Assembly: GCA_021776685.1 (NCBI GenBank)
Contig: JAJFFJ010000088.1
Span: 1 to 35,221, forward strand
Length of the DNA: 35,221 nucleotides
Source: Alphaproteobacteria bacterium
Lineage (GTDB): Bacteria > Pseudomonadota > Alphaproteobacteria > Bin65
Reading direction: 5' to 3'
This document shows, one piece after another, positions 6,582 through 14,111 of the stretch. The translations under genes and the position numbers were made by a program. The notes beneath the pieces are model-generated. The model searched no databases and was not told where the DNA came from. It saw only the letters and a list, made by a program, of their open reading frames with translations. How positions within the stretch are numbered: the first letter of the stretch is position 1; each line of letters starts with the position of its first letter.

Positions 6582-7421
6582 ATGCCGAAGCGTCTGTCGC
6601 AAGCTCAGGTCGACCACTATCACGATCACGGCTATGTCTCGCCGATACCCGTCCTTGACCCGGCGGATGTGGTGAGGCTGCGCGCAGAGCTTGAGCAGCA
6701 TGAGGCCGACGCTGGAAAACCCCTCGATTTTCCGGAAAAGTCAAAGGCGTATCTGCTCTATGGCTGGTCGGACGAAGTCGTCCATCATCCCGCCGTGCTG
6801 GATGCGGTGGAGGATGTGATCGGACCGGATATTCTGGTCTATCACCAGACCACCTGGATCAAGGAGCCCGGCACGCCGAACTATGTGCTCTGGCATCAGG
6901 ACGGCAAATATTTCTTCCTTGAGCCGCATCTGCATATCACTGCATGGGTCGCGCTGACCGATGTGACGGTTGAAAATGGCTGCGTGCATGTTCTGCCTGG
7001 CAGTCATAAGTGGGGCGATTTCGATCACGTGGACGACACTGGTCCGCACAATATGATCAAGCGCGGTCAGGGCATCCCGGACCTGTTCGACAACGAAGTG
7101 GGCGTGCCCATCGAACTCAAGGCCGGCGAGATGTCCCTGCACCACACCGACCTGGTTCATTGCTCGCACGGCAACAGCGGTTCCGACCGCCGTATCGGCA
7201 TCGGCACCAGCTACATTCCCGCCTCCGTGATCCAGACCGGCGAACCGAAACGCACGGCCCTGCCGGTTCGCGGCAAGCCGCAACCCGGCGTGTTTGAAGA
7301 AGAAAAGCGGCTGGTCAACGAAGTGAGCGACGAGGCAAAGGCCGCCCACGCCTACTCTGTCGGCTTGTTTCGACAACTACAGGATGTGGGCGCGGCGATC
7401 CGGGAACAGGCTGCGGAATAG
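6582..7421 (+). CDS. Phytanoyl-CoA dioxygenase (PhyH) family protein
   Basis: This 279-residue protein is an Fe(II)/2-oxoglutarate-dependent oxygenase. The metal triad is visible: H105 and D107 in WHQDGKYF and the distal H193 in DLVHCSHGN. R204 in DRRIGIG is placed to bind 2-oxoglutarate. The N-terminal LSQAQVDHYHDHGYVSPIPVLD is the usual PhyH opening. Family members hydroxylate diverse small substrates; the substrate here is unknown. AAAGG upstream of the ATG supports the start. The SDR gene downstream is convergent, 113 bases away, so the pair is not an operon. Confidence 0.92.
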   Translation: MPKRLSQAQVDHYHDHGYVSPIPVLDPADVVRLRAELEQHEADAGKPLDFPEKSKAYLLYGWSDEVVHHPAVLDAVEDVIGPDILVYHQTTWIKEPGTPNYVLWHQDGKYFFLEPHLHITAWVALTDVTVENGCVHVLPGSHKWGDFDHVDDTGPHNMIKRGQGIPDLFDNEVGVPIELKAGEMSLHHTDLVHCSHGNSGSDRRIGIGTSYIPASVIQTGEPKRTALPVRGKPQPGVFEEEKRLVNEVSDEAKAAHAYSVGLFRQLQDVGAAIREQAAE

Positions 7422-7534: not shown

Positions 7535-8275
7535 TCATTTCGCCGTATAACCGCCGTCGGCACAAATGACCTGACCGGTCACAAACGAAGCTGCGTCCGA
7601 CAGCAGGAACACAATCACGTTTGCGATTTCATCCGGCTCACCAAATCGGCCCATGGGAATGCCCTGCAACAACCAGTCGTGCCGCTCGGGATTGGCGCGG
7701 GTTTCGGCGGTCATGGCCGTATTGGTAGGACCCGGCCCAACTGCATTGACCCGAACATTGTCAGGCCCAAGTTCCAGCGCCATCGTCCGTGTCAATCCGT
7801 TGATGCCTGACTTCGACGCCGCATAAGCCGCCGCGCGCGGATGACCGGCCAACCCGATCTGGCTGGAGATCATGACGATCGATCCCACCTGCCGGGCTTT
7901 CATGTGCCGAGCCGCGGCGCGGGCCAGGTTGAAGCAGCCGGTCAGGTTGACGCCGATAACACTGTCCCACGCCGCATCGGTCGTTTCTGTCGAGGGCAGC
8001 AATTCGAGAATGCCTGCCCCTGCGACTGCGCCGGTCAGGCTGCCAAAAGTCGAGACCGTGCGCTCGATGGCCTGATCAATGGCTGCGCTGTCGGTCACAT
8101 CGATGTCAAAAATCAGGTCGGCCTCGGCAATTTCCGCCAGGGCGCTTTTCTGTTCGGCGCCTCGAACGGTTCCCGCCACCTTCGCCCCAAGAGACTGGAG
8201 CTTCGCTGCAGTGGCCAGCCCGATCCCGGAACCCGCTCCGGTCAGAAAAACGCCATGCCCGTGCAAATCGATCAT
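7535..8275 (-). CDS. Short-chain dehydrogenase/reductase (SDR)
   Basis: The 246 residues make a classical SDR. The cofactor loop TGAGSGIG is at 12-19. An acidic D60 in DIDVTD fits the adenine-pocket Asp. The catalytic set is N110, S138, Y151 and K155 (Y-A-A-S-K). The C-terminal '[38 protein letters not shown]' is typical. One oddity: the structural NNAG motif reads AGAG (85-88). The protein oxidises or reduces an alcohol/carbonyl with NAD(P); the substrate is unknown. Confidence 0.93.
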
Positions 8276-8426: not shown

Positions 8427-10025
8427 CTACTGTTTTCGCTTTAACAAGCTGCCGGCCCAGGCGCGGCTGAAGTTGTAGGTCATCTCCACCATGAAGAGGT
8501 TATCGCGGCGGACGCTGAAGAGCGAGCTGGTGGGGCGCGTTTGGGTGAACAGGCGCGCCTCGACCGTCAATTTCCAATTGGTGCCGATACGGGTGGAGGC
8601 TTCGACGAAGAAGGACCGCTCGGGTGAGCGCAGATCCTGGATAGCGCCGGCAAGCACCTGGGTGTCCTGCGGGTTGTTCAGCGCCAGACGGACGCCGGCA
8701 AAGATATCGTTAGCAAAGGGCGTTCCCGCGCGGCGCTGGCGGCTGTCGTAGAGGTATTCGCCGAGAAGGCCGAGGTCCGCGTTGGTCTTGAAGATGCGGA
8801 AAAAGGTGTATTCAAAGCCGCCCGCCACAGCCACATAGTCTTCCTCGCGGAAGACAGCATTCTTCTGGCGCAGGCGCACAATCGACTCGAGCTTGACCAG
8901 CCACGGCCCCTTCGTGAACTGCGCGTCCACACCAACCTGGTCGATCTGCTCATAGACCGGCACCAGCACCGGCTCCCGGCCGTTGAAGCCCAGACGAAAC
9001 ACCGGGTCCCGGCTGGTGCCGCGGAAATAGTGCAGACCCACGTCCACCGCCTTGATGGTGTGGCTGTATCGGATCGCGAAGTCAGGATGCCAGTGGCGCA
9101 GACGGCTGTCCCCGAAGACCGCCGTGTCGGGCTCCACCCTGAGCGCGCTGCGCAGGCGTCCACCGCGGCCCGGGAAGGTGCGCGGACGGAAGTAGGGCAG
9201 GAAATAGAAGCTGACCGCGCCCCATTTGCGCGGTACCGTCAGCGCCAGCATGGGCTGGCCCAGCTTGTCCTCGCCGTCCACATTCTCGACGCCATCGTCC
9301 TGGTTGATGATGTCGACCAGATGCACAGATTCGGTGACGCCCCAGAACACCTTGTCGACGCCAAAGCGCAGCTCCAGCCGCGGCTTCTTCCACACTTTCA
9401 GCAGGTAGGCTTCGCGCAGGTCGAAATGGGTGCGCTCTTGGTCCGAGGCATCCCAGCGGAAGAACGGCTTCACCGTGAAGCGCAGGTTGTTGCGCAACTG
9501 CAGGGAATATTCGATCTCACCGAACAGGCCCGCACTCTGCGGTTTCTGCCCGGCATGGATCGGCATCAGCGGGAAGGCGCGTATTTCCGCGCCAATGCTG
9601 CCGGTGATCTTGTGCTTGGGAAAACCGCTGCCACCGCGCGCCGGGTCGGTCTTGCGTGGCGAGGGCTTTTTCTGGTCCAGGCTAGGGTCGCCGCTTTTGC
9701 CGGGCGCCGGGCCGGGCATGCCACCGGGAGGAGCCTCTTTCTTTGTGGTCTTGCCGCCCGAATTCAGGCTTGGGTCATCCGCCGGCGGTGGCGGGCCAGG
9801 CATGCCATCACCGGTCTTGTTGCTGGTCTTGTCGCCGCCCTTAGTGCCGGCATTCTTGCTGTCGGTGTCCGGTGGCGGTGGCGGGCCGGGCATTTTGGTA
9901 TCCGGCTTTTGCGCCAGCAGGGCCATGGGATCGGGCAGGCCGTCATCCGCTACTGCAGGTGCAGCAAAGGTGAGGAACGCTGCCGCTGGCAGCGCGCCCA
10001 TCAGCCGTATCATGCCCCCGGTCAT
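8427..10025 (-). CDS. Outer-membrane beta-barrel protein with a proline-rich N-terminal linker, partner of the RND/LolA-like unit
   Basis: I do not recognise a named family for this 532-residue protein. A signal peptide (about 1-26, ending AAPAVADD) is followed by a disordered region (about 27-145). That region holds three related motifs, MPGPPPPPD, MPGPPPPADDPSL and MPGPAPGKSGDPSL, set in Lys/Gly/Ser/Asp-rich sequence. From about 150 onwards, alternating amphipathic strands dominate (IGAEIRAFPLMP, SLQLRNNLRFTVKPFFRWD, LEARLFTQTRP). The protein ends in strand-like 'LFMVEMTYNF', so an outer-membrane barrel is likely. It starts 7 bases after the LolA-like stop, as the last gene of the unit. It may be the outer-membrane acceptor or channel for the exported substrate; that is inference from context. 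Confidence 0.75.
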   Translation of the reverse strand: MTGGMIRLMGALPAAAFLTFAAPAVADDGLPDPMALLAQKPDTKMPGPPPPPDTDSKNAGTKGGDKTSNKTGDGMPGPPPPADDPSLNSGGKTTKKEAPPGGMPGPAPGKSGDPSLDQKKPSPRKTDPARGGSGFPKHKITGSIGAEIRAFPLMPIHAGQKPQSAGLFGEIEYSLQLRNNLRFTVKPFFRWDASDQERTHFDLREAYLLKVWKKPRLELRFGVDKVFWGVTESVHLVDIINQDDGVENVDGEDKLGQPMLALTVPRKWGAVSFYFLPYFRPRTFPGRGGRLRSALRVEPDTAVFGDSRLRHWHPDFAIRYSHTIKAVDVGLHYFRGTSRDPVFRLGFNGREPVLVPVYEQIDQVGVDAQFTKGPWLVKLESIVRLRQKNAVFREEDYVAVAGGFEYTFFRIFKTNADLGLLGEYLYDSRQRRAGTPFANDIFAGVRLALNNPQDTQVLAGAIQDLRSPERSFFVEASTRIGTNWKLTVEARLFTQTRPTSSLFSVRRDNLFMVEMTYNFSRAWAGSLLKRKQ

Positions 10026-10032
10026 GTCGCGC

Positions 10033-10878
10033 CTAGTTGGACCGCGCCCGTTTCAGGCTGGTCTTGGTGAAGTCGCCTTCAGACAGGCCCGACTTGAACT
10101 TGTAGCCGCCCCAGATCATGTCCGTGCTTTTCCTGGTCTGGTGATTGTACATACGCAGGAAGTGTGCCCGCCAGATTTTGCCCAGATATTGCCTGTAACG
10201 CAGCAGAAAGAGGGTCTTCAGCCGTGCACCCTTACGGTCGTAATAGATCACTTTGTGCACCCGGTAATGTTCCTTGTCGAGCCAGGTGATCTGCCGGGTA
10301 TAGCCGGAGTTGGGATCGGTGGGGACCCGTTGGCTGACGAAACACATCAGCTTGCCGCCCGGCCCACATTTCTCGTCCCGCAAATATTTGTAGCGATACT
10401 TCTCTACTTCCTGGGAAGAGAGATCCTCGTAGGCAAACTCGCTGCCCACGAAAGAGCCGGACTTGTTGGACGAACTGATCCGCTTCACCCGCTTCAACGC
10501 CGGCAGGAACAGCCACTGATCGTCGTCGCCCTTCTTGTGGGTCCAGGTCAGCAGTGCCGTGCCCTCGATATCAGGCGGGCGGCTGAAGACGATGATGCTC
10601 TTGTCGCCGTCGGACTGCTTCTCGAAGGAGGTGATCTTGAAATTGCGCTCGCTCGACTGACCCTGGGCGTTGCGCAGGATCATCTTACCGAGGACGGAGG
10701 AATCACCCCAGCCGAGGTCGCGCTTGTCGGCTTCCTTGGCGATCGCCAGACCCTTGGCCGCAGCGCTTTGCGCATGGGCGGTACAGGTAGAGAGCGCCAC
10801 GGGCGCAGCGGCCATCGCCGCGACGCCGGCCAACGAGACGTATTTACGCCGCAGCAGGGGAAGGTTGATGCACGTCAT
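10033..10878 (-). CDS. LolA-like periplasmic outer-membrane lipoprotein-sorting family protein
   Basis: The 281-residue protein has an N-terminal signal peptide ending near TAHAQS (about residue 37). The mature part matches the LolA-like family linked to MMPL-type transporters. The conserved stretch runs 'RNFKITSFEKQSDGDKSIIVFSRPPDIEGTALL', then 'QWLFLPALKRVKRISSSNKSGSFVGSEFAYEDL'. This fold binds lipids in a hydrophobic half-barrel. It probably ferries a lipid or hydrophobic product across the periplasm from the RND protein to the outer membrane. The ATG at 10878 overlaps the end of the RND gene by 35 bases, so the two are translationally close. It is not the general lipoprotein chaperone LolA, which is shorter and differs in sequence. 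Confidence 0.85.
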   Translation of the reverse strand: MTCINLPLLRRKYVSLAGVAAMAAAPVALSTCTAHAQSAAAKGLAIAKEADKRDLGWGDSSVLGKMILRNAQGQSSERNFKITSFEKQSDGDKSIIVFSRPPDIEGTALLTWTHKKGDDDQWLFLPALKRVKRISSSNKSGSFVGSEFAYEDLSSQEVEKYRYKYLRDEKCGPGGKLMCFVSQRVPTDPNSGYTRQITWLDKEHYRVHKVIYYDRKGARLKTLFLLRYRQYLGKIWRAHFLRMYNHQTRKSTDMIWGGYKFKSGLSEGDFTKTSLKRARSN

Positions 10879-13366
10879 GGCTCGATTTTTCCTTCTTTCT
10901 GTCGATCTTGAGAAGCAGGGGGGCCAGGAAAAAGAAATCGGCGATCAGTGCAATGAATATGGTGATCGCTGTCATCAGGCCCATGATGGAATTGATCGCA
11001 AAGCTGGAGTAAGCGAGCACGCCGAAGCCCGCCATCAGGACGAAGGTGGTGACCACCAAGGCCCAACCAACGGTCACGAAGGCATAGCGTACGGCGTCCT
11101 CGACGCTGGCATTCTGCTCGCGCCGCGCTCGAAGATATTTCGAGAGGAAGTGAATCGTGTCGTCCACCACAATGCCCAGTGTCAGCGCGGCCAGCACCGC
11201 GGCTGCCAGATTGACCTCGCCCACGAACAGACCCCAGGCGCCAAAGGCCATCGCCGCTGGCACCAGGTTGGGAATTAGGCTGATAAGCCCGATCTTGACG
11301 CTGCGAAGCGCGACCATCAGCAACGCCGAGATCAGCAGCAGCGCCAGCAACGTGCCAAACAGCATGGAAACGATATTGCGTTCGGAGATGTGGGCGAACA
11401 TGAGGTTGGCGCCCGTGCCGCGGCCGTGAACATGGGCCACCTCAACAACCGGTTTGCCTGTCTTTGGGTCGACCAGCATTTTCCCGGTCTCAGGATTAAT
11501 GCGGGTCGTGCGTACGGGTTCGCGCATGTAGGCGGGCAGGTTGTCGACGATCCACTTGTTGGATTTGACCTCGAAGGCGCGCATGGCGACCGCCGACATG
11601 TCAGTAATCGTCACGACGATGCGGGTCGAAGATTTACCAACATTTATCTGGTCGTTCAGATCGAGCCCGAAGGGCAAAGACATTTCGAAGAGCAGCAGAT
11701 ATTGCGCCGCCAGCTTTCGCTCCCCGGGCAGCTTGTAGAAGCTCTGTTTATCGCCATTCAGATTCTTGTTCAGGCGCTTCATTGTGTCGGACATGGCGTT
11801 CACATGAACGACACCTTTCTGCGCGCGCAGCCAGTCGACAAATTTCCCGAGATTCTTGAGATAGGCCGGGCTGCTGATTGAATTGGCGGCGCCCTTGGAA
11901 CCAGGTGCGGCGCCAGGCAGGGAATACTCAATGGCATACATGCCTGTGAGATTCTGCATGGTGTAGTCCGCGTCGACGCGGAATTGGACCGAGGTGTCGA
12001 AATACTGGACGAACCGGTCATTCAGTTCGATGCGTGGAATGAAGGCGATGCAGACCACGATCAACAATCCCATGCCGTAAAGCAGCGGGTTGCGCCTGCG
12101 GACTACGAACTCACCCACATGGGCCATCACTGCTGTGTGCCCTTCACGCGGCTGGCGCGCCTTGATGGGCAAAACCACCATCAGCGCCGGCAGGAATGTC
12201 ACCGAGAAGAGCAACGCGCCCATGATGCCGATCGCCGTGATGTTGCCGAGGTCATGGAACGGCGGCGCGTCGGAGAAATTCATGGTCAGGAAGCCAATCG
12301 CCGTGGTCACGCTGGTGAGGATGATCGGCAGCATATTGATGCGGAGGCTTTCAATAACGGCATCGCGTTTGGGCACGCCGCGCCGCATTTCGTGGAACAT
12401 GGTGACCAGGAAATGGATCGAATCGGCGATCGCCAGCGTCATGATGATTAACGGTGCGTTGATTGCCGGTGGCGACAGCGGGATGCCGAGATAACCGGAG
12501 ATCCCCATAGCGGTCATGGTCGAAAGGATAATGACCGCCAGAGCCCCCAGTGTGCCGAGCAAGGACCGCAGCATTAGTGCCATCAGCACCAGAATCAGCA
12601 GGAATGCGATGGGAATCAGCGTCGCCACATCTTGCTGGCTCGATGCCACGAAAGCATGGTTGAGCATAACGATTCCGGTCAGCCGGACAGCAACCGTCGG
12701 GTATTTTTTCTCGATGTCCTTGGCCAGAGCCCGGCCCGCATCCACGATCTTGAAAATCGCGTCCGGATTGTTCTCAGGCATCAAGACCGTGACGTTAACG
12801 CCGGTAGTCTTGCTGTCCTTACGGATCAGGCGGCCATTCAACAATGGTTCTGAAAGCGCAATCTTCTGCGCCTCGACAATTTGCACCACCGGCATTTTGA
12901 GGGCGGATTTTATCAGGTCGCGGACGATCAATTCGTCTTCGCTGGCCTTGGTATGCTGAAAATTGGCGAGAGAATCGACCCGGCGCGAGAATGGGAGCTT
13001 CCAGGACCTCTTGGTCAGCTCTTCGATCGCCGCCAGGCGCTGGCGCGTGAAGACCGTGCCTTTCACGCCATCCTTGTCCGTCCCTTTGGCCGTGACGACG
13101 AACATCAGGTTTTCGTTTTTCATGTAGATGCGCTGAACCGCATCGAAGGCTTTCAGGTCCGGATTGTTTGGCCCGAAATAGACCCGGTAGTGGGTAGAGA
13201 ACTGCAGGAACTGACCGCCATAGGCCGAGCCGAAGGCAAATAACACGGTCGCGATAATTACCCACCAGCGATAGCGGACAACGAATTCGCCCCAGCGCCG
13301 CGCGTAAGCGCCGCCACCGTTTGCGCCACCATTTCCGGCTACCTGTCCGGAATCGTCAGCCGCCAT
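10844..13366 (-). CDS. RND superfamily transporter, MMPL/patched-like type
   Basis: The 840-residue inner-membrane protein has two similar halves. Each half has one TM helix, a large periplasmic domain, then a bundle of five TM helices. TM1 is near residues 33-50. The proton-relay-like motifs are ADSIHF (about residue 312) and VDDTIHF (about residue 734), typical of this RND branch. The ORF could start at 13393, but the ATG at 13366 has an ideal GGAGGAG Shine-Dalgarno and I use it. It is the first gene of a unit with the LolA-like and beta-barrel genes and follows a tetR gene by 97 bases. Relatives move hydrophobic lipids or polyenes. A role in drug efflux is less likely because no membrane-fusion protein is present. 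Confidence 0.92.
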   Translation of the reverse strand: MAADDSGQVAGNGGANGGGAYARRWGEFVVRYRWWVIIATVLFAFGSAYGGQFLQFSTHYRVYFGPNNPDLKAFDAVQRIYMKNENLMFVVTAKGTDKDGVKGTVFTRQRLAAIEELTKRSWKLPFSRRVDSLANFQHTKASEDELIVRDLIKSALKMPVVQIVEAQKIALSEPLLNGRLIRKDSKTTGVNVTVLMPENNPDAIFKIVDAGRALAKDIEKKYPTVAVRLTGIVMLNHAFVASSQQDVATLIPIAFLLILVLMALMLRSLLGTLGALAVIILSTMTAMGISGYLGIPLSPPAINAPLIIMTLAIADSIHFLVTMFHEMRRGVPKRDAVIESLRINMLPIILTSVTTAIGFLTMNFSDAPPFHDLGNITAIGIMGALLFSVTFLPALMVVLPIKARQPREGHTAVMAHVGEFVVRRRNPLLYGMGLLIVVCIAFIPRIELNDRFVQYFDTSVQFRVDADYTMQNLTGMYAIEYSLPGAAPGSKGAANSISSPAYLKNLGKFVDWLRAQKGVVHVNAMSDTMKRLNKNLNGDKQSFYKLPGERKLAAQYLLLFEMSLPFGLDLNDQINVGKSSTRIVVTITDMSAVAMRAFEVKSNKWIVDNLPAYMREPVRTTRINPETGKMLVDPKTGKPVVEVAHVHGRGTGANLMFAHISERNIVSMLFGTLLALLLISALLMVALRSVKIGLISLIPNLVPAAMAFGAWGLFVGEVNLAAAVLAALTLGIVVDDTIHFLSKYLRARREQNASVEDAVRYAFVTVGWALVVTTFVLMAGFGVLAYSSFAINSIMGLMTAITIFIALIADFFFLAPLLLKIDRKKEKSSHDVHQPSPAAA

Positions 13367-13430
13367 TACATTTCTCCTCCGCCGTGACCCCATTCACGCC
13401 ATGGGGACACATTTGGGTGTGGTTCAAGTC

Positions 13431-13471
13431 TGTTCAATGAACATTTTTGCTTTTGTTCATGATTCAGTGAA
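13431..13471. promoter_or_regulatory. Candidate TetR operator pair upstream of the RND gene
   Basis: TGTTCAATGAACA (13431-13443) is a perfect palindrome. Its core TTCANTGAA recurs as TTCAGTGAA at 13463-13471, with centres 30 bases apart. Both lie between the tetR stop and the RND start; the second overlaps the tetR stop codon. A related TTCAGTCAG occurs in the tetR promoter on the minus strand. Confidence 0.5.
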
Positions 13472-14057
13472 TTCTGCTCAGTAACCCCTTCAACACCAGC
13501 TTTGTGATCTGGCCACAGAACACATCCACCTGCTCACGGGTGAAGTTGGAACTGACCGCCGGATACCAGGGGCCGGCGAGCGCCAGCAACACCTTGAAGG
13601 CGTCGTTGTCGCCGTCGATAGGCTCGAATTCGCCAGAGGCGAGGCCCTGATCCAGCACTTCCTGGATCATCGACGTAAGCGACGCCATATGCATATCCAT
13701 CACGTCGCCACGGTTGGTGGCGCAGATCTGGATGATCTCCTGCATATAGGGATCGCCCTGAAAACGGTCATATTTGGTTAGCGCAATTTCCCGAACCAGC
13801 CGCTCCAGTTTGGCGGATGCCAAGGGCTCCGAGCTGCGGATAATCTCGCGGCCGATGTCCTCGTCCTCAAACATGCAGCGTTTGGAGACCTGAATGGCGA
13901 TCTCCTCTTTGGCGTCGAAATAGCGGTAGAGATTGGCAGCGGACATGCCCACGGTTCGCGCAATATCAGCCATGGTGGTTTTGCCATAGCTGAAGCGGCG
14001 GAACAGGTCCTGCGCTTGGTCCAGTATATGCTCGCGGGTGACCGCCAAATCAGACAT
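13464..14057 (-). CDS. TetR-family transcriptional regulator
   Basis: The 197-residue length is normal. Residues about 7-53 form the TetR DNA-binding domain: TREHILDQAQDLFRRFSYGKTTMADIARTVGMSAANLYRYFDAKEEI. The recognition helix region is MSAANLYRYF. The C-terminal ligand domain is all-helical and not assignable to a known ligand. The gene lies directly upstream of the RND/LolA-like/barrel unit on the same strand, with candidate operators on both sides. It therefore probably represses itself and the exporter, and is released by a hydrophobic ligand. The ligand part is inference from TetR-RND pairs in general. Confidence 0.93.
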   Translation of the reverse strand: MSDLAVTREHILDQAQDLFRRFSYGKTTMADIARTVGMSAANLYRYFDAKEEIAIQVSKRCMFEDEDIGREIIRSSEPLASAKLERLVREIALTKYDRFQGDPYMQEIIQICATNRGDVMDMHMASLTSMIQEVLDQGLASGEFEPIDGDNDAFKVLLALAGPWYPAVSSNFTREQVDVFCGQITKLVLKGLLSRIH

Positions 14058-14066
14058 GGCGCGACC

Positions 14067-14111
14067 ATAATTGCACCTGACTGAATAATCAACAAATTAT
14101 TTAGTATTCAG
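14067..14111 (-). promoter_or_regulatory. Candidate tetR promoter with overlapping dyad operator
   Basis: On the minus strand TTGTTG (14090-14095) and AATTAT (14067-14072) are separated by 17 bases, a weak promoter match. The dyad CTGAATA (14081-14087)/TATTCAG (14105-14111) and an inner AATAAT/ATTATT pair overlap it. The arrangement fits autorepression. Confidence 0.4.

Follow-up and report, generated by a model that had tools for sequence, protein, structure and literature searches.

A conserved trio of MMPL pump, LolA-like protein and porin-type barrel, often linked to TetR, as a likely trans-envelope export line

Apart from the Lpt, Lol and Mla routes, little is known of how hydrophobic compounds cross the Gram-negative periplasm, and the known systems closest to the unit reported here come from two bacteria. 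In Castellaniella defragrans, cells deleted for ameABCD tolerate monoterpenes less well and, when treated with carbonyl cyanide m-chlorophenylhydrazone (CCCP), accumulate more Nile Red (PMC6394551). In Thalassolituus oleivorans, TOL_3187, which combines MMPL and LolA parts, and the porin TOL_3188 are strongly induced on the n-C28 alkane (PMC6304351). Here we describe a four-gene unit in a stretch of 35,221 nucleotides from an Alphaproteobacteria bacterium (contig JAJFFJ010000088.1 of assembly GCA_021776685.1; the whole stretch is called the window below), which encodes a TetR-family regulator, an MMPL/HAE3-type RND pump, an exported LolA-like protein and a porin-type beta-barrel protein of the outer membrane. 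The unit looks like a shorter variant of the AmeABCD and TOL_3187/3188-like systems, without a YCF48 protein, with a distantly DUF1302-like barrel and with its own TetR, and on balance we favour the view that it is an inducible trans-envelope export line for a hydrophobic or amphiphilic small molecule.

The order MMPL, LolA-like protein, barrel recurs far more often than by chance. GTDB genome contigs were scanned with a profile of the barrel only, LolA and MMPL being absent from the query, and the best 80 of at least 551 relatives were kept. The three genes follow each other in the order of the window in 59 of these 80 loci, six more carry all three inside 6 kb, and nine contigs are too short to judge, which leaves the trio inside 6 kb in 65 of the 71 judgeable loci. 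These span Alpha- and Gammaproteobacteria, Nitrospinota, Nitrospirota, Desulfobacterota, Planctomycetota, Acidobacteria and others, and this gene-neighbourhood search upholds the linkage that a preliminary description of this DNA had proposed. A culturable carrier is Kiloniella litopenaei (L100). The reverse test took 20 PF17131 loci from other genomes of the phylum: the ten top-scoring ones all lie in the same MMPL-LolA-barrel trio, and the weaker ones include LolA-MMPL-barrel (L175), LolA-barrel-MMPL (L169) and MMPL-LolA alone (L167), the remainder being LolA alone or without a match to the profiles used. Furthermore, the tree distances of the three proteins, compared over 58 loci and the window, correlate at 0.75-0.76 against a permutation maximum of 0.30, with a contribution of shared species history included in these values.

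The model of the pump has a mean predicted local distance difference test score (pLDDT) of 83.8 and aligns with HpnN (5khn) at 3.4 A over 649 residues with 20% identity, as well as with MmpL3, MmpL4 and MmpL5. Together with the MMPL domain match and with TIGR00921 HAE3 as the best NCBIfam subfamily (1.1e-43, under its cut-off), this fold places the protein among the HAE3 RND pumps. In 52 sequences D744 is invariant and D745 is kept in at least 90%, the two forming an acidic pair in transmembrane helix 10 (TM10), and D324 in TM4 is the majority residue; all three are candidate proton-relay acids. The HpnN model reaches 132.5 bits on the window pump against a cut-off of 751.85, and a separate, near-complete HpnN is encoded on contigs C114 and C132 of the same genome, seemingly split between them (residues 4-587 and 540-856). 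Hopanoid transport by the window pump was rejected, since HpnN is encoded separately.

The LolA-like protein matches PDB entry 3bk5, a protein of Vibrio parahaemolyticus, with an E-value of 5.5e-87 over residues 39-277, and its mean column identity across phyla is 59%. The constant partners of this LolA-like subfamily are now clear, and we know of no function assigned to 3bk5 or its relatives. Searched up to E 1, the true LolA family PF03548 gives no match to the protein, which is hit by PF17131 and DUF1329 only, the latter weakly (24 bits against a cut-off of 23.1, over 61 residues only). PF17131 is annotated as an outer membrane lipoprotein-sorting protein, and a second LolA for special lipoproteins might be read from that label; with PF03548 silent, and with an RND pump and a porin-type barrel as constant partners in place of LolCDE or LolB, such a role is highly improbable, and true LolA activity was rejected on these two grounds.

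No Pfam or NCBIfam model matches the barrel protein itself, and its sequence finds no solved structure up to E 1. Its AlphaFold2 model, built from 64 sequences, has a mean pLDDT of 91.1 and a predicted template modelling score of 0.85, with 20 strand segments assigned by DSSP, and the modelled barrel is probably 18-stranded. The model matches OprD/Occ porins (Z about 24 over about 300 residues), AlgE (22.8) and maltoporins (about 18), which makes it a large up-down beta-barrel of the porin type, as the preliminary description had expected. The barrel profile aligns with the short DUF1302-like family A4 (hhalign E 4.9e-14), one short DUF1302-like protein stands next to LolA and MMPL in L175, and the alignment with canonical DUF1302 is weak (probability 33%). 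The DUF1302 model finds nothing on the window barrel itself and matches 5 of 64 relatives weakly, and a DUF1302 search of the whole genome returned no match, a 14-genome control being equally silent.

The linker in front of the window barrel (25 P, 18 G and 13 K among 109 residues) has no counterpart that was seen in the relatives, where a median of 29.5 residues precedes the barrel match. In L050 the barrel protein (upstream of 10001) starts, as judged by eye, with a SPOR (peptidoglycan-binding)-like domain before the barrel, and this domain and the Pro-rich linker of the window hint that the N-terminal parts of the barrels reach into the cell wall. At its other end the window protein runs for 13 residues (SRAWAGSLLKRKQ; 8427-8468) beyond the Phe with which nearly all relatives terminate; its C-terminal assembly signal would therefore be internal.

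How pump, carrier and acceptor might be joined is illustrated by L177 (4929-7484), where a single protein combines MMPL domains with a C-terminal LolA_like domain and the barrel gene follows 3 bases on. An extra hydrophobic stretch between TM12 and the LolA domain of this fusion is apparently a former signal peptide, and it could place LolA in the periplasm beside the pump. Such fusions, which tether the carrier to the pump, would also suit a fixed conduit in which the LolA-like protein acts as a docking adaptor between pump and barrel. The fold of LolA and LolB is, however, a carrier fold, the barrel matches porins and not TolC, and Pfam finds neither an HlyD-type adaptor nor a TolC-type outer-membrane factor among the proteins of the unit. 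A docking role of this kind has been proposed for AmeB/AmeC, to which the authors ascribe a membrane-fusion-like function (PMC6394551); for the present unit we consider it unlikely. Classical HAE1 tripartite efflux was rejected, as the unit has no adaptor or TolC match and its barrel aligns with porins. The line of pump, carrier and acceptor set out in the preliminary description is thus supported by linkage, folds, correlated trees and the L177 fusion as far as the partnership goes, and the hand-over between the three proteins is the part that we infer.

Only one gene accompanies the trio frequently, that for a TetR homologue, present in the window and in 27 of the 80 loci, and a palindrome of the form TGAATAWTWWRTTGAWTATTCA recurs upstream of the trio-linked tetR genes. 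This conserved operator palindrome just upstream of tetR is new here. The motif reaches p<=0.01 against shuffles in 18 of 28 loci (about 0.3 expected), mostly 30-67 nucleotides before the start, with p-values that are optimistic because the consensus was derived from the same loci on which it was scored; the agreement of the sites across phyla is observed directly. The copy in the window is the only exact match of the operator pattern in the 4.54 Mb genome, and a wider TetR regulon was rejected, since only one further site, with two mismatches, turned up, as many as in the reversed control. With its own TetR and an operator that has no second exact match in the genome, the unit looks locally regulated and inducible, and the conserved predicted operator lends support to the TetR control suggested earlier. 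The regulator is weakly similar to acyl-CoA-sensing TetR regulators of the FadR/PfmR type (NF053878, 2e-7; 3vpr, 4.8e-8), and its palindrome is reminiscent of the Bacillus FadR box, a likeness of use as a lead only. The half-sites of the weak second inverted repeat, between tetR and the pump gene, resemble those found upstream of tetR in L066 (TGAACATT...AATGTTCA).

Clustering of the neighbours in the 80 loci revealed no biosynthetic or catabolic gene that recurs beside the trio, in agreement with the earlier remark that biosynthesis genes are missing next to the unit. Next after TetR come clusters of generic appearance (GGDEF/EAL-like, ABC ATPase, response regulator), and a search of viral contigs gave no relative. 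The barrel is patchily distributed, occurring in 14 of 61 genomes (that of the window and its relatives) and in 8 of the 54 genera of that sample; 11 of the 13 barrel genomes other than that of the window have LolA nearby, and 10 have a substantial MMPL match. This bears on the substrate, for which the preliminary description had offered a common lipid; read in that way, a housekeeping export route would place an endogenous envelope lipid in the outer membrane. The LolA fold, the HpnN/MmpL-like pump and the missing catabolic or biosynthetic neighbours would suit such a lipid, whereas the patchy occurrence, the local TetR with its operator, the separate HpnN of the genome and the ties of known relatives to hydrocarbons and terpenes speak against it. 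A common envelope lipid is therefore possible, if rather unlikely, and less likely than an inducible export line for a hydrophobic or amphiphilic small molecule.

OprD-type porins serve uptake, and the barrel might in principle admit a hydrophobic nutrient that the LolA-like protein and the pump pass inwards. In Thalassolituus, TOL_3187/3188 are induced during growth on the C28 alkane and are drawn in an uptake route (PMC6304351), and the authors of a benzene cluster leave the direction open (PMC13101534). No catabolic gene recurs next to the trio, however. In addition, the HAE3/MMPL pumps of known direction, such as HpnN and MmpL, move their substrates outwards. The AmeABCD study is to the same effect (PMC6394551), and inward transport seems distinctly improbable.

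An export line of the kind that we favour would start with the build-up of an inducer (probably the substrate or a compound derived from it), upon which TetR, acting as repressor, would leave the operator upstream of its gene, and the tetR, MMPL, LolA and barrel genes would be expressed as one operon. The proton-driven pump would then extract the molecule from the inner membrane, or from the outer leaflet of that membrane, and deliver it to the periplasmic side, the LolA-like protein would hold it in its hydrophobic cup and ferry it across the periplasm, and the OprD/AlgE-like barrel would accept it and pass it to the outside or to the outer leaflet of the outer membrane. A hydrophobic or amphiphilic substrate is probable, given that AmeABCD, the benzene Nanopod cluster and TOL_3187/3188, the relatives on which this analogy draws, are tied to such compounds. 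Several points weigh against the proposal: export instead of uptake is suggested by the RND family, direction being invisible in sequence; the porin-like barrel has many conserved charged residues, which favours an amphiphile over a neutral lipid; the operator was scored on the loci that defined it; we know of no ligand for 3bk5; and the papers searched contain no experimental study of this subfamily. More tentatively, and with a good deal of doubt, RND pump, LolA-like shuttle and porin-type barrel might constitute a separate, widespread class of soluble-carrier exporters without a sealed conduit, of which the compact, TetR-controlled, multi-phylum branch would be in part under one conserved operator that answers a fatty-acyl type signal.

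Table 1. Features of the unit, with positions in the window.
Feature	Position	Strand	Details
Predicted operator	14082..14103	(-)	TAAATAATTTGTTGATTATTCA; 25-46 nucleotides before the start of tetR, in the gap that separates tetR from the M20 peptidase gene upstream
Putative TetR-family repressor	13464..14057	(-)	197 amino acids; first gene of the unit; Pfam TetR_N 2.1e-12, TetR_C_27 3.1e-10
Possible second operator	13437..13460	(-)	ATGAACAAAAGCAAAAATGTTCAT; tetR-MMPL gap; inverted repeat; weak
MMPL/HAE3-type RND inner-membrane pump	10844..13393	(-)	849 amino acids; PF03176 1.8e-31
Exported LolA-like carrier (predicted)	10033..10878	(-)	281 amino acids; LolA_like PF17131 2.8e-59 (200 bits)
Outer-membrane porin-type beta-barrel, distant DUF1302 relative (predicted)	8427..10025	(-)	532 amino acids; structure model and profile match
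Pro/Gly/Lys-rich linker of the barrel protein (residues 28-136)	9618..9944	(-)	between signal peptide and barrel; composition

All four open reading frames lie on the minus strand exactly where they had been placed before, and every coordinate tested of the earlier four-gene layout was borne out. The MMPL and LolA-like genes share 35 bases (10844-10878), 7 bases separate the LolA-like stop from the barrel start, and tetR stands 70 bases from the MMPL gene. By eye, the N-termini of the LolA-like and barrel proteins resemble signal peptides. An FabG-like short-chain dehydrogenase/reductase gene (7535-8275) lies 151 bases past the barrel gene and a PhyH gene (6582-7421, plus strand) lies on the same side, and the upstream side holds genes for an M20 peptidase, a GFA protein and a DapD-like protein. 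No YCF48-like gene was found among the four unit genes and the scanned flanking genes, and scans for sigma-70 promoters and terminators gave no excess over shuffles. In other loci, inspection by eye revealed ArsM-like methyltransferase genes (L041, L049, L057, L076, L100) and Acr3-like arsenite transporter genes (L048, L049, L067, L076) near the trio, in some Nitrospirota, Desulfobacterota and others. Downstream of the barrel, L041, L049, L076 and L040 carry a second MMPL gene, whose more distant product shares 23-25% identity with the window pump.

To conclude, a compact and conserved route of three proteins, served by a regulator of its own and a specific operator, makes both substrate and direction testable in one organism. 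AmeABCD unites an outer-membrane DUF1302 protein, a periplasmic protein of the LolA superfamily and an HAE3 RND pump in one cluster (PMC6394551), in which, however, AmeB is a DUF1329 protein of 451 amino acids compared with the 281 of the LolA-like protein here, the YCF48-like AmeC has no counterpart in the window, and the outer-membrane protein comes first and the pump last, in a neighbourhood of monoterpene genes; in the window the barrel resembles DUF1302 only remotely, and the unit brings a TetR of its own. TOL_3187/TOL_3188, compared by description, share MMPL and LolA with an immediately following porin that has no known domain, and differ in the fusion of pump and carrier and in the uptake that their authors propose (PMC6304351).

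The ORM2a Nanopod cluster brings together a porin-like protein, DUF1329 and an MMPL family transporter (PMC13101534). This cluster and the DUF1302/DUF1329 proteins of Delftia differ in their YCF48 and stress proteins and in their association with benzene or phenanthrene metabolism, and the portions of the sources consulted report no TetR, unlike in the window (PMC13101534, PMC3110197). PG1175-81 of Porphyromonas gingivalis and similar Prevotella operons share TetR, MMPL and an 'outer membrane lipoprotein-sorting protein', and differ in two ABC genes and a strong iron response, with no barrel of this family reported in the part of the paper at hand (PMC10434189). HpnN shares the HAE3-type pump fold, although the window pump scores far under the HpnN cut-off. 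In the BstABC sterol transporters of Methylococcus, an RND pump, a periplasmic binder and an outer-membrane-associated protein serve one lipid, whereas BstB and BstC belong to other families, the genes are clustered with those of sterol synthesis and the paper makes no mention of LolA (PMC10942540). The unit would work like AmeABCD, and it should not be filed as a member of that system because it has no YCF48 protein and takes its barrel and LolA parts from other branches.

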